Part shown: piece after piece, positions 3,441 through 10,872 of the stretch
How positions within the stretch are numbered: the first letter of the stretch is position 1
Layout: each line of letters starts with the position of its first letter
Source of the DNA: an uncultured Granulosicoccaceae bacterium
GTDB lineage: Bacteria > Pseudomonadota > Gammaproteobacteria > Granulosicoccales > Granulosicoccaceae
Direction: 5' to 3'
DNA: 40,862 nt
NCBI GenBank assembly: GCA_937928685.1
Contig: CALGJU010000116.1
Span: forward strand, 1-40,862
The notes under the pieces: model-generated
Database searches by the model: none
Told to the model about the DNA's origin: nothing
The model's input: only the letters and a program-made list of their open reading frames with translations
Position numbers and translations under genes: made by a program

Positions 3441-5360
3441 TCAGTTTGAAGACACTATGCAGTTATCAAAAACACCGACATCTTCACTGTACACCACCAC
3501 TGATCCAAACTTACTGTTTGAGGGCGCAGTGAGCTCTGCGATGTGATTACTGTATGCAGTCGTCTCTACCGGAATCTCTGAGGTTTCCAGTGCGGCGTAA
3601 TTGGCATTCATCAAAGTAAGTGAAACACTCGTGTAGAGCTGTGTGCTTTCACTTTTTGCGCGACAATCCATGCTGTAGCTGGTGCCTGCTTGAATGGCGA
3701 ATTCCTGATACATACAACCACCGTTTTTAGCAGACAATGCACCTGAACCTGCATCAGAATCGGCGCTTAGCCCAATCAGGTTAGAGGCGGCACAGGAATT
3801 CCAACCGTTAAGATTGCTTTCAAAGTCACCATTTGCTAACAGATTAGTTACAGGCTCAGGAGTTGGTTCTGGTGTTGGTTCTGGTTCCGGTGTTGGTTCT
3901 GGTTCCGGCGTCGGTTCTGGTTCTGGAGTCGGGTTTGGTGTTGGCTCCGGTTCAGGTGTTACTGAACCAGACGTCATACGGCAGGAATCAAACAACGTTG
4001 TGTCTTCGCTGTACAGCAGGGCTGCTACATAGGCAGTCTCAGCCGGTGCCACAGCGTCCACCGAATAATCCGTATAGGCAGCCGCAGCACCCACCTGTAT
4101 CACTTCAGTGAGAAGGTTACGGAAATTTGCATCAAGATAGCTGAGCTCGACGATCGTCCAATTACTGCCAGATCTATTGGCAGCACAGGTCAAGTTGTGT
4201 GCCTGACCCGCTTCAGCGACAACCTCCTGGTAGATACATCCGCCGTTGGAAATTTCCATAGCAGCGCTACCACCAGCCTGATTACTCGTCACACGCTGAA
4301 TATTGGCAGAAGATCCGCAATTAGACCACGCGCCAAGCCCGGTTGCTTCAAAGCCACCATTGGCCAGCAGGTTGTTCTCAGGTGTCGGCTCTGGTTCTGG
4401 TTCCGGCGTTGGTTCCGGCTCCGGCTCCGGCGTTGGTTCTGGTTCTGGCTCTGGTTCCGGCTCTGGTTCCGGTGTCGGTTCTGGTGTTGCTGCAAGCACT
4501 TCCAGCCGTGGGCCGGAGGCATGCCAGATAGAAGCGCCTTCTGCAGGACTGTGCGGCAAGTGTGTTACATACCAAAGCACTAGATCAGTGCCATCAATAT
4601 TTTGCGCCGGAGAGTTGTATAACTCACCAATCTCACCACGTGCGCCTTTACGCCACCTCCCTACTTCAGATGCAACAAATGCTCGACCAGCGAAATCCCA
4701 CTTGGAAAAGTTGTCTGGCTCACCATCGTCATCAGCCGGTGTAAGACGCACCTTGCTACCTGTGACTTTATCTTGAATTGTCCAAAATTGAGTATTGGAC
4801 TTGAGGTCATTAAATTCTGTGGCTTGTACATCACTCGCGCCTTTTGCAATTTGATCATCAGACGCACCATCTATGTCGAAATCAAACATCCACTGTGCAT
4901 GGTGGCCGTGTTGTATCTGGCACTGAAGACCCCGGCTATATACCCGTGAATCAAAGTATCCATTCTCACTAAAATAATAAGTCTGATAAATCTGGTATTC
5001 GCCAATTTGCCAATTCGCTCCTACCTCAAGCATATTTTCACCATTTTGAGTGAAGGTGCGGCGACACAAGGCTTGATTTTCACAGGCCGGCGTTTGCGCA
5101 CCACTGCCCGGGTTTCGTAATGCACCTGAAGAAAGTATATCTGCGTAAGGGCCACAGACATCGTTCTCATATTCAACTCGCATTACCGGCATGCTCACCT
5201 TGCCGAGAATTTTCTTGTTGTTGTAGGTAAGATTCGTTAAGACTAAACCGGATGAATTATTATTTGTGCTGTAGTCAAAGCTCCAGCCAGACCAATCGAC
5301 ATCGGCGGCCTGAGCAGTAGTTGCAGCCAACAATAGTAGCGAACTTATCAATGCTTTCAT
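3441..5360 (-). CDS. Secreted copper-amine-oxidase-type catalytic domain with two CBM-like modules
   Basis: Residues are numbered from the upstream ATG at 5366 (M1); I prefer M3 at 5360 because GGAG abuts the 5366 ATG but sits 6 bases before 5360. Signal peptide to about residue 20 (AQA/A). Residues 24-291 read like the catalytic domain of copper amine oxidases: the opening VDWSGWSFD and GLVLTNLTY, and near the end IDGTDLVLW. Compared from memory with Arthrobacter AGAO, D76 fits the catalytic base, Y124 the topaquinone tyrosine (in GEYQ rather than NYD/E), H153-x-H155 two copper ligands (spaced exactly before DIDG) and H272 the third (W+7, as in AGAO). The domain is compact. Two Pro-Glu linkers (294-330 and about 470-505) lead to two similar beta-rich modules (about 332-465 and 507-641), each with four conserved cysteines and an NLLANG-FE start like CenC-type CBMs. 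The family normally deaminates primary amines, releasing aldehyde, H2O2 and NH3. The activity and the family call are inference. Confidence 0.7.
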   Translation of the reverse strand: MKALISSLLLLAATTAQAADVDWSGWSFDYSTNNNSSGLVLTNLTYNNKKILGKVSMPVMRVEYENDVCGPYADILSSGALRNPGSGAQTPACENQALCRRTFTQNGENMLEVGANWQIGEYQIYQTYYFSENGYFDSRVYSRGLQCQIQHGHHAQWMFDFDIDGASDDQIAKGASDVQATEFNDLKSNTQFWTIQDKVTGSKVRLTPADDDGEPDNFSKWDFAGRAFVASEVGRWRKGARGEIGELYNSPAQNIDGTDLVLWYVTHLPHSPAEGASIWHASGPRLEVLAATPEPTPEPEPEPEPEPEPTPEPEPEPTPEPEPEPTPENNLLANGGFEATGLGAWSNCGSSANIQRVTSNQAGGSAAMEISNGGCIYQEVVAEAGQAHNLTCAANRSGSNWTIVELSYLDANFRNLLTEVIQVGAAAAYTDYSVDAVAPAETAYVAALLYSEDTTLFDSCRMTSGSVTPEPEPTPNPTPEPEPTPEPEPTPEPEPTPEPTPEPVTNLLANGDFESNLNGWNSCAASNLIGLSADSDAGSGALSAKNGGCMYQEFAIQAGTSYSMDCRAKSESTQLYTSVSLTLMNANYAALETSEIPVETTAYSNHIAELTAPSNSKFGSVVVYSEDVGVFDNCIVSSN

Positions 5361-5369
5361 TTTCATCTC

Positions 5370-6113
5370 CTACTTCACCAAGCCATGTTCAAGTACAGTC
5401 GCGCCACTTAAATTAACCAACGCGGTGTAGACCGGTAGCTCTCCACCACCAGGCCCAAACGTCACATACATCATTCGCTGTGGATAAAAATGTTGTTGTG
5501 CACTTACTACTTCACTTGCAGGTGGAAACGCCAACATGGCAGTACCCTGTAGACCACTAACATCAAAGCTATCGTTAGTGAGAACGGTTTGAGCAAGGCT
5601 GATTGCATCCTCTACTTCCTGAGGATGTTCCGTTGGCTGGTAAACAGAAGCGGTAAATATCTGGCTGGATACTGAACCATCGCTGGCCAGCACCACCTCT
5701 ACCGTTTCATCAGTGGCATAGTTATAAAAAACAATTCTCGCCACCTCATCACTTTTGCTATCGCCAAGGGTTGCATGAATTTCACGGTAGTCACTACCCA
5801 GACTGGTTCTGACCTGCGGGTTATTCAAGATCGAACTTCTTGCAGCAGTCAACACGCCTGACAGTGCGCCAGCCCGCGCACTCCCCGGATAAAGCTCAGC
5901 GTTAGTCATGTTTTCCGGTTGTGGAGGCCAAATGCCATCCGCAGGCCCTGTGTGCGGCGTGTGGCTGCCAGAAATATTGGAGTCAGTCGAGCCAGTCACC
6001 AGCACACTGCCTGAGTCGCTGCAGGCGGCAAGAACGATTGGCAGTGCTAACGCAACAATCAATACGTTTGCAGACTTTCTTGCCCGCATTCCGGAAAATC
6101 TATACTTGAACAT
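5370..6113 (-). CDS. Lipoprotein resembling amine oxidase N2-N3 domains
   Basis: A lipobox VLAAC follows a hydrophobic segment, so Cys31 should be lipidated. After a Ser/Thr/Gly-rich spacer, the protein reads like the two small alpha/beta (cystatin-like) domains N2 and N3 that precede the catalytic domain in copper amine oxidases. An ARIVFYNY...ETVEVVLASDGSV strand pair is followed by EVEDAISLAQTVLTND (N3 helix pattern) and QRMMYVTF...PVYTALVNLSGATV. The protein stops where N3 ends, and the next gene starts where the catalytic domain begins. The stop overlaps the start region of that gene, so the two are translationally linked. AAAGGGG precedes the ATG. It could instead be a PepSY-like lipoprotein; the homology is from pattern reading only and needs a profile search. 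Confidence 0.6.
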   Translation of the reverse strand: MFKYRFSGMRARKSANVLIVALALPIVLAACSDSGSVLVTGSTDSNISGSHTPHTGPADGIWPPQPENMTNAELYPGSARAGALSGVLTAARSSILNNPQVRTSLGSDYREIHATLGDSKSDEVARIVFYNYATDETVEVVLASDGSVSSQIFTASVYQPTEHPQEVEDAISLAQTVLTNDSFDVSGLQGTAMLAFPPASEVVSAQQHFYPQRMMYVTFGPGGGELPVYTALVNLSGATVLEHGLVK

Positions 6114-8935: not shown

Positions 8936-9997
8936 ATGAGTCAACTACCAAAACACCTGAATCGCCGCCGCCCTTTGCAAGTGGCCATCATGACCGGGAC
9001 CCTGGCAGCTACCGGTTTGGTAGTAGCCTCTGTAAGTGGTTGTGAAAGCAACTCCACTAAAGTAGAAGAAGCTGCCAACCCGACCGCGGTAAAGAAGGTC
9101 GTTGCCGCTGCCTGCAACCCTTGTAATCCTTGCGCCGCAAAAGCCTGTAACCCTTGCGCTGCTAAAGCCTGCAACCCTTGCGCTGCCAAAGCCTGCAATC
9201 CTTGCGCTGCAAAAGCCTGTAATCCGTGCAACCCTTGCGCTGCAAAAGCTTGTAACCCGTGCAACCCTTGCGCTGCAAAAGCTTGTAACCCGTGCAACCC
9301 TTGCGCTGCAAAAGCCTGTAACCCGTGCAACCCTTGTGCTGCAAAAGCCTGTAACCCGTGCAACCCTTGTGCTGCAAAAGCTTGTAACCCGTGCAACCCT
9401 TGTGCTGCCAACGCATGCAACCCTTGTAACCCATGTGCAGCCGGCGGCATCAAAGCCTCAGACTTCGTTCGTCCAGCAGGCGTAGAGTTTGACGCAGCGG
9501 CAGCGATGGCGATGGCTTCCAAAGGTAAAGAGCTTTGGAATGACACATCACTAAGCACCAACGGCCTGTCTTGTAACTCTTGTCACAACGGCGGTGCACT
9601 GCTTAACGCTTCTTTTGCACAGCCCTACCCCCACAACATTGCTATGCCTACTCAACAAACAGGTGTCGGCGCAATTGATATCGATGAGATGGTCAACTTT
9701 TGCATGGTCGCGCCTATGCAAGCAGCACCGCTTGAGTGGAACTCAAATGAGATTATCGCCCTGAGCGCTTACTCATTAGAGCTGCAAGCTTCGTTTAACC
9801 CGTGTGCAGCTAACCCATGCGCCGCAAAAAATCCGTGCAATCCATGTAACCCATGTGCTGCTAAAGCGTGCAATCCATGTGCTGCAAAGAACCCTTGCAA
9901 CCCATGTGCAGCGTGTAATCCATGCAACCCATGCGCTGCGAAAAACCCTTGCAGCCCATGCAATCCTTGCAACCCGTGTGCTGCCAAAACCAACTAG
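8936..9997 (+). CDS. Lipoprotein c-type cytochrome with CNPC cysteine repeats
   Basis: Signal segment with lipobox VSGC (C36), so probably anchored at the membrane on the periplasmic or outer side. Residues 60-169 are eleven tandem units of CNPC(NPC)AAKA, holding 30 cysteines. Residues 172-287 form a single cytochrome c domain: [21 protein letters not shown] with heme motif C213-x-x-C216-H217 and a likely axial Met at M261 (CMVAPM; M257 is the alternative). Residues 288-351 return to CNPC/KNPC repeats with 16 more cysteines. The density of CxxC pairs suggests metal (copper or zinc) binding or a redox relay; this is inference. GGAG is 10 bases before the ATG. A strong terminator lies 23 bases after the stop, inside the next gene's 5' end. 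I do not know a characterised homologue of the whole architecture. Confidence 0.85.
9113..9442 (+). repeat. Tandem coding repeat (33- and 24-bp units), first block
   Basis: Encodes residues 60-169 of the CNPC protein. The order is one 33-bp unit, three 24-bp units, then 33-bp units. Five adjacent 33-bp units between about 9218 and 9382 are nearly identical, differing mainly at third positions (GCC/GCT, TGC/TGT), which points to recent expansion by slippage or unequal exchange. Confidence 0.9.
9797..9988 (+). repeat. Coding repeat, second CNPC block
   Basis: Encodes residues 288-351. Units are more diverged and irregular than in the first block (CAAN, CAAKN, CSPC variants), so this block looks older. 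The two blocks bracket the heme domain. Confidence 0.85.
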
Positions 9998-10005
9998 CAC
10001 ACTCT

Positions 10006-10872
10006 ATGTCAGTAGTAATCAAAGAGCCCGCTTGCCGGGCTCTTTTTTTGATCATTGCACTCGTTATACAAGCCGCTTGCGTTAACGCTGATCAGCTGAA
10101 CGCACCAGGCACCGTGACTATTCCCGCCGGTGAGTTTGTGATGGGCTCTGATCAACAGGAACGCGAATACGCCTACCTTATCGATGAGGAGGCCTATGGT
10201 CACTCGCGCACACGCACTGGCAAATGGTACGACTCCGAACGCGATCGCATCACCACCACCAGTGATAGCTACGACATCACAGTCACCCCTATCACCAATG
10301 CTCAATACAAGCTTTTTATTGACGCCACCGCACACCCGGCACCAAACGTAGATGCAATAACATGGAAAGGCTACGGACTGATTCATCCATTTGAACGCAC
10401 AAGACGCCATGCCTGGAACAACAATCAACCACCGTCAAACCGGGCGAATCATCCTGTTGTACTGGTCAGCTATGAAGATGCGAACGCCTACGCTGCCTGG
10501 TTATCCACCACCCGTAAAGAGAAATGGCGATTACCGACAGAGGCCGAGTGGGAAAAAGCCATCAGAGGCACAAACGGTACGATCTTCCCTTGGGGAAACA
10601 CGTTTGATAGTGCTAAATTAAACAGTCACGACGCTGGCCCGTTTGACACCGTTGCCGTAGGGAAAAGATCATCACCCGGCCCCTATGGTTTGCTCGACGG
10701 TGCAGGCCAGGTGTTCGAATGGGTACTGACACCAAATGCAAAAAGAGCCTGGGTGAAAGGCGGCTCATGGGACGACAGCGGCTGTGGCGTCTGCAGACCT
10801 GCTGCACGCCACAGCAGAGATAAGGCGTTACGCCACATACTTATAGGTTTTCGACTGGTTAAAACACAATGA
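10006..10872 (+). CDS. Exported FGE-sulfatase-fold protein (SUMF1/PvdO-like)
   Basis: Formylglycine-generating-enzyme fold (288 aa from the ATG at 10006): VTIPAGEFVMGS at the start, ITNAQYKLFIDAT, HPVVLVSYEDANAYAAWLS, RLPTEAEWEKAIRG, FPWGN, GPYGLLDGAGQVFEW, KGGSWDD, and IGFRLV at the end. A hydrophobic segment (ALFLIIALVIQAAC) directs it out of the cytoplasm. At the FGE copper/cysteine site, C260 aligns by my reading with the second FGE active-site Cys, while the first is replaced (W255). An extra C263 makes a CGVC pair, so classical formylglycine formation is doubtful. The start is uncertain: no good ribosome-binding site precedes 10006, and an upstream in-frame ATG at 9922 lies inside the cytochrome gene. 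TTG at 10048 is another option. The stop overlaps the next start (ATGA). Confidence 0.8.
   Translation: MSVVIKEPACRALFLIIALVIQAACVNADQLNAPGTVTIPAGEFVMGSDQQEREYAYLIDEEAYGHSRTRTGKWYDSERDRITTTSDSYDITVTPITNAQYKLFIDATAHPAPNVDAITWKGYGLIHPFERTRRHAWNNNQPPSNRANHPVVLVSYEDANAYAAWLSTTRKEKWRLPTEAEWEKAIRGTNGTIFPWGNTFDSAKLNSHDAGPFDTVAVGKRSSPGPYGLLDGAGQVFEWVLTPNAKRAWVKGGSWDDSGCGVCRPAARHSRDKALRHILIGFRLVKTQ
10021..10049 (+). terminator. Canonical intrinsic terminator inside the FGE-like gene start
   Basis: Perfect 10-bp stem AAAGAGCCCG (10021-10030) / CGGGCTCTTT (10036-10045), loop CTTGC, with seven T's at 10043-10049. It is placed as the terminator of the CNPC gene (stop 9997), yet it lies in codons 6-15 of the FGE-like frame and encodes the start of its signal peptide. 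Confidence 0.85.

Follow-up and report, generated by a model that had tools for sequence, protein, structure and literature searches.

We have identified, in a stretch of 40,862 nucleotides from an uncultured Granulosicoccaceae bacterium (contig CALGJU010000116.1; hereafter the window), a pair of adjoining genes that very probably encode a copper amine oxidase (CAO) in split form. Both lie head to tail on the minus strand. The first would specify an exported lipoprotein of two small alpha/beta domains, D2-D3 (also named N2-N3), and the second an exported protein in which a compact CAO catalytic domain (D4) is followed by domains of the carbohydrate-binding module (CBM) type. The pair probably arose by fission of a CAO gene, with the lipid-anchored D2-D3 half acting in trans with the exported catalytic half. 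The split pair is no isolated case but one member of a family. The consensus around the cofactor-precursor tyrosine was looked for and is absent, and for that reason the pair is placed with the CAO kind and not as a proven topaquinone enzyme; activity as a quinone enzyme is, judged from the aligned residues, only slightly favored.

Gene layout and catalytic core

An earlier note on this DNA had read a CAO divided between these two genes, and its reading, corrected in details, largely holds. Open reading frames (ORFs) confirm both genes and their strand: a lipoprotein gene of 247 amino acids with a signal peptide and lipobox (5370..6113), in which the codon of the lipobox Cys31 (VLAAC) lies at 6021-6023, and a catalytic-subunit gene of 641 amino acids (3441..5366) that encodes a signal peptide, a CAO-like core, linkers and two CBM-like domains. 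The lipobox of the window, and signal peptides here and in the relatives, were judged by eye. The two genes had been said to overlap at stop and start. In the window they do not: the lipoprotein stop codon (5370-5372) and the ATG of the catalytic gene (5364-5366) stand 3 nt apart (5367..5369). With the first possible start codon taken, the genes overlap in 16 of 22 related loci and are spaced by 1-4 nt in six, including the window.

The catalytic core occupies residues 22-290 (4497..5303, minus strand), and the quoted opening, DVDWSGWSFD...GLVLTNLTY, was found behind the signal peptide. That the larger protein carries the CAO catalytic domain was confirmed by PF01179, matched at residues 21-68 only (33.9 bits, cut-off 27), and by profile-profile alignment. 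Using hhalign, the core profile of the window clade aligned with 15 canonical CAO catalytic domains at a probability of 96.3 over 242 columns (score 72.2 versus 24.5 for the best of 100 column shuffles); the canonical set had been filtered for N-Y/F-D/E-Y, a filter that 15 of 15 loci passed, with none lost. The core of f38, our label for another family of the window's class, aligned with the canonical domains at a probability of 92.7 (score 61.1 versus 28.3 for the best of 100 column shuffles) and with the window-clade core at 99.2, and reversed templates scored no more than 15.3. When the profile of 22 cores was run against PDB sequences, CAOs came first (best E 5e-4). A profile of 14 diverse cores reached 38 PDB sequences at E<=0.01 (best E 3.6e-11); one, 3pgb, is a 'putative uncharacterized protein', and the others are named as amine, diamine or lysyl oxidases. 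A phmmer search of PDB with the whole catalytic protein returned mainly Pro/Glu-repeat matches and no CAO among them. Profile comparison thus establishes that the core is related to the CAO catalytic domain. For the protein as a whole, the assignment stands for its opening and for approximately residues 21-290; the remainder consists of linkers and CBM_4_9-like domains.

Active-site positions were compared in an alignment of 63 sequences: 26 from the split clade, 19 from f38 (those of 24 rows that passed a length filter), 15 canonical CAOs, and the relatives from Microvirga, Variovorax and Nonomuraea described below. Tyr124 (Y103 of the core; 4995..4997), in the context G-E-Y-Q, aligns with the topaquinone precursor Tyr and is present in all 63 rows (26/26 split-clade, 19/19 f38 and 15/15 canonical). 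His153-x-His155 (4902..4910) aligns with the H-x-H copper ligands, with His at both columns in 63/63. His272 (H251; 4551..4553) aligns with the third copper ligand, which is His in 26/26 split-clade and 15/15 canonical rows and in those of Microvirga, Variovorax and Nonomuraea. Tyr66 (Y45; 5169..5171) falls on a conserved Tyr of canonical CAOs and is likewise common to all rows (26/26, 19/19 and 15/15, respectively). Asp76 (D55; 5139..5141) is an uncertain candidate for the catalytic base. It is Asp in 26/26 split-clade and 19/19 f38 rows and invariant outside the canonical rows, all 15 of which hold A, C, T or S in that column. The identity of the canonical base Asp, and the roles of the Tyr residues in each enzyme, are presumed here.

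A rival explanation is that the split CAO-fold pair is no longer an amine oxidase, and is instead a pseudo-oxidase serving as a copper- or substrate-binding surface module of which the CBM-like domains are the active part. Several observations speak for it and against an active enzyme. According to the review PMC3382800, the consensus around the precursor Tyr is T-x-x-N-Y-D/E. Asn precedes this Tyr in 0/26 split-clade rows, its place being taken by Glu in 23, Asp in one and Ser in two; the residue after it is Gln in 13 (the window included), Glu in seven and Asp in six. The canonical flanks are thus lost, and the base Asp is not placed, since Asp76 is offset from the canonical Asp by three alignment columns and for that reason is only a candidate. 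The third His column holds Asp in 17 of 19 f38 rows and a gap in two. The core is also shortened: it spans 268-272 residues, where canonical proteins continue for 395-417 from the equivalent start to their C-terminus, and the dimer arms may therefore be missing. An AlphaFold model of the catalytic core built from three sequences had a pLDDT of 33.7 and was not used for fold searches.

Against the pseudo-oxidase, all 26 split-clade rows keep the precursor Tyr, both His of H-x-H and the third His while identity to the window drops to 43%, which would be unexpected if the chemistry had been lost. The same review reports for HPAO-1 that changing the Asn before the Tyr to Ala leaves 5-10% of the cofactor and that changing it to Asp slows cofactor formation about two-fold; it does not mention Glu (PMC3382800). 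We regard the loss of oxidase function as a serious but rather unlikely alternative, and an active split CAO as the better account of these residues. A Leisingera caerulea match was rejected, having proved to be a canonical CAO (L115:2221-4137). Its precursor Tyr is preceded by His where Asn would be expected (A-H-Y-D), which shows that canonical members, too, can depart from the consensus; a HupE/UreJ gene lies upstream of it.

Fold and probable affinity of the lipoprotein

No N2 or N3 match of the window lipoprotein, and nothing else informative, was found in Pfam or NCBIfam, and direct searches of PDB sequences returned chance matches only. Structure and intermediate families were therefore needed for this half. 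An AlphaFold model of residues 57-247 built from three sequences (pLDDT 68.8, pTM 0.43) consists of a helix and four strands, twice over, the topology expected of D2 and D3. These are approximately 100-residue alpha/beta domains thought to stem from a duplication, as described in the review cited above (PMC3382800). The first unit, D2/N2-like, spans residues 77-154 (5652..5885, minus strand) and is delimited by the predicted secondary structure and the Foldseek match to CAOs; the second, D3/N3-like, spans residues 159-245 (5379..5639), with additional support from the f38 profile match. In a Foldseek search of PDB, ranks 1-7 of 900 matches were all CAOs. Six were AGAO entries (E 3.4e-5 to 6.4e-4, probability 1.00, 195-197 columns including gaps) and one was the Hansenula enzyme 3loy (E 2.6e-3, 141 columns); the eighth match had a probability of only 0.21. 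The modeled lipoprotein can thus be said to have a D2-D3-like fold.

Profile comparison gave a graded result. The f38 lipoproteins aligned with the end of N2 plus N3 at a probability of 81.6 (score 42.6 versus 22.6 for the best shuffle), the window and f38 groups aligned with each other at 67 (38.1 versus 26.8), and all lipoproteins pooled matched N2-N3 at 29.7 (32.1 versus 19.2). The f38 profile held 21 of 24 rows after duplicate removal, some of them not trimmed to the lipobox.

The main alternative for this half is that the lipoprotein is a separate partner with a cystatin-like fold, such as a copper-delivery or maturation factor. It draws on the points that weigh against a D2-D3 assignment. 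The window family itself matched N2-N3 profiles at a probability of only 3.9 (score 22.9 versus 20.95 for the best of 100 shuffles), and the TM-scores of the model to the six AGAO matches are low globally (0.32-0.36, root-mean-square deviation about 10), as if the two units were differently oriented or the model were imperfect. A lack of profile matches to PF02727 or PF02728 had been named beforehand as one test against the N2-N3 assignment, and none was found in Pfam; the earlier claim that the lipoprotein is N2-N3 stands on the model fold, the Foldseek ranks and the intermediate f38 family. The separate-partner reading is opposed by those top seven ranks, six of them over 195-197 columns, by the f38 lipoproteins that match the end of N2 plus N3, and by one-chain relatives that carry approximately 200 residues at the same place. 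We consider a separate partner improbable and a D2-D3 half the preferred identity of the lipoprotein. Lipidation of this half is predicted because a lipobox-type Cys occurs in 22/22 aligned lipoproteins of the window clade.

Distribution, one-chain relatives and probable number of fissions

The catalytic core was found in 15 of 57 genomes searched, including 13 of the 14 in the window's genus. The 22 core loci comprise 11 long, window-like forms (two cut by contig ends) and 11 short forms of approximately 300 residues without CBM, and a related lipoprotein gene lies directly upstream in all 22. Conversely, a lipoprotein-profile search of 48 genomes of the window's order gave 26 matches in 18 genomes, namely the 22 core loci and four new ones, each followed by a catalytic gene. 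Identity to the window core falls to 43% within this split clade. The f38 search matched 18 of 147 genomes in 25 rows, of which 17 genomes rather than 18 look real. The row dropped as a chance match (L090; 35% identity, 40 aa) was the sole match of G523, and L097 was removed as the second half of the frameshifted L085 locus. All 23 distinct f38 loci that were left have an upstream lipoprotein-type ORF, and 20 of 24 rows hold a lipobox-type Cys by a loose pattern. The pairing is not due to chance: in the window's order and in f38, no related locus examined lacks a related lipoprotein gene ahead of the core.

A frameshift, an assembly error or a decaying pseudogene of a normal CAO could also divide one gene in two. 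Nothing in the window clade points to this; in f38, the G546 locus does appear frameshifted. Across 22 loci of 15 genomes the genes are split in the same way, with a lipobox-type Cys, and the 22 core matches contain no internal stops. Conservation of the split across 22 loci led us to reject such an artifact, the probability of which we take to be negligible.

The pair family is rare in the sample of the phylum. Against 398 genomes, the core profile found, beyond the window's own, only two, both f38. A broader core profile matched seven of the 398, four of them weakly (E 1e-5 to 5e-4), and at least two of these four are known canonical CAO loci (in G252 and G212). No core relative was found in the viral contigs searched.

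One-chain relatives were found by tblastn of plasmid records (n=72,556). With an f38 protein as query, Variovorax sp. WDL1 (two records) and Nonomuraea gerenzanensis were matched; the window core also matched a plasmid of Microvirga ossetica, and the window lipoprotein matched none of these records. The Variovorax (WP_162487223.1, 529 aa) and Nonomuraea (518 aa) proteins are single chains of approximately 200 residues followed by a compact core, collinear with the split pair, and share 41% identity over 88% of the query. The former is annotated as 'hypothetical protein', and the Nonomuraea stretch carries no feature. The earlier note had held that gene order equals domain order and had suggested a search for fused or always adjacent forms. 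The collinear chains bear out the former, and the latter search found the pair adjoining in 26/26 and 23/23 loci, with one-chain forms in Variovorax and Nonomuraea. A point to the contrary is that the N-terminal part of these chains has no Pfam match and only weak profile matches (28 to N2-N3, 16 and 9.5 to the lipoprotein groups; a two-sequence profile, no shuffles); position is the main ground for regarding it as D2-D3.

In Microvirga the pair is split. Its first gene aligned with the window lipoprotein family at a probability of 98.4 over 174 columns, and its core passes PF01179. The second gene is annotated from 4226, and its reading frame extends upstream without a stop as far as an ATG at 3977, which lies within the last part of the first gene. 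Neither gene has a signal peptide or lipobox by eye. The core (L107:4001-4963) contains a glycine-zipper-like insert between the conserved Tyr and Y-x-D (Pfam matches below cut-off), and the C-terminus of the protein is repeat-rich. In a catalytic tree of 39 rows, with f38 represented by seven of nine chosen rows plus L030, the one-chain forms were joined by f38 (93/85) and the window clade by Microvirga (100/97), with long branches flagged by the program. A tree holding all 21 split rows together was not rejected (AU p 0.114). Two independent fissions are therefore preferred on the sequence tree, though not forced by it.

Several further loci were noted. Six f38 genomes have two copies, in tandem in five; in G546, two halves of a single frameshifted copy are seen. 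The f38 loci L030, L079 and L088, among others, have CAO-like cores that keep H-x-H and have Asp at the third His. In L029 and L030 the core is followed by an ORF that looks secreted; compared with Pfam (L029 copy) and with NCBIfam (L101 copy, from the G450 locus), it gave no match. In the relatives L098 and L099, the next gene on the 3' side of an AllH gene, approximately 110 bp away and of like strand, is the first of a short pair; in L098 the pair closes a series of genes for an M20 peptidase, an amino-acid kinase, a class-V aminotransferase, AllG, a CoA-ligase and AllH, a set of the purine/oxamate nitrogen-use type. One genome, G000, has both the short paralog pair at C317 (L016), consisting of a lipoprotein and a 298-aa core protein without CBM, and an apparently canonical CAO at C223 (L025; positions 2-559, at a contig end), of which the second half is seen, with a strong match to PF01179 (191.7 bits). 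Elsewhere in the window, 8936-9997 encodes repeats of an 11-letter protein motif (letters not shown) around a SoxA/TsdA-type cytochrome c domain, and the next gene (9922-10872) is of FGE-sulfatase type.

Proposed function and comparison with known amine oxidases

The C-terminal half of the window's catalytic protein consists of Pro/Glu-rich linkers and two CBM_4_9 stretches. The second domain, residues 508-617 (3516..3845, minus strand), is the better of two PF02018 stretches and the one that was placed (whole-protein score 43 bits, cut-off 25.9); the first (3972..4373) has limits set by eye, and NTTRR-F1 matched at 331-420 below its cut-off. A thrombospondin-3-like stretch occurs in a divergent relative, L049, at a score below the cut-off (22.1 bits versus 25). 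Together with the CBM-like domains of the long paralog, it suggests, from sequence likeness, surface or polymer-bound substrates.

It is hypothesized that the lipidated D2-D3 half is held at the membrane and docks the exported core, the two assembling as D2-D3 and D4 do in a one-chain enzyme. Copper would be bound by His153, His155 and His272, Tyr124 would be converted to a topaquinone-like cofactor, and the enzyme would carry out oxidative deamination of primary amines, with the CBM-bearing paralog perhaps reaching polysaccharide-bound or surface substrates through its CBM-like domains. More tentatively, and with odds somewhat short of even for the whole, the families may form a class of two-component, lipid-anchored CAOs with D2-D3 in trans, a reduced core, a quinone formed from a Tyr without Asn/Asp flanks, a 2-His-1-Asp metal site in f38, and two fissions, one in the window/Microvirga lineage and one in the f38 lineage beside the one-chain forms. 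A natural split would reveal what is dispensable for the catalytic domain, allow the role of D2-D3 to be tested by omission of the lipoprotein, and serve as a test of how far the Tyr context can change with the quinone still forming. It would also give a proposed function to proteins called hypothetical where annotation was seen.

In the open-licence literature searched, no split or lipoprotein CAO was found, which is not proof of absence. The CAOs structurally characterized up to 2012 are described, in a review of that year, as homodimers of one chain with domains in series (PMC3382800). Canonical CAOs (PF02727-PF02728-PF01179; AGAO, ECAO and HPAO) share with the pair the catalytic domain, the precursor Tyr, three His, a D2-D3-like fold and the domain order. 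They are one chain with a core of approximately 400 residues, whereas the window has two genes, a lipid-anchored D2-D3 and a core of approximately 270, together with altered Tyr flanks and a CBM-like appendage. Mammalian VAP-1 (AOC3) resembles the proposed pair in being a membrane-anchored CAO (PMC3382800). Closer to the window are the Variovorax and Nonomuraea proteins, which have the compact core (Y/F-R-D, W-Y-R-Y, H-x-H-H and the third His) with approximately 200 residues in front, and differ in being single polypeptides with no signal peptide by eye. The anchor of VAP-1 is a transmembrane segment in the same chain and not a lipidated separate subunit. The Microvirga ossetica pair is split like that of the window, with a related first gene and a PF01179 core, and is set apart by its lack of visible export signals, the Gly-rich insert before Y-x-D and a repeat-rich C-terminus.

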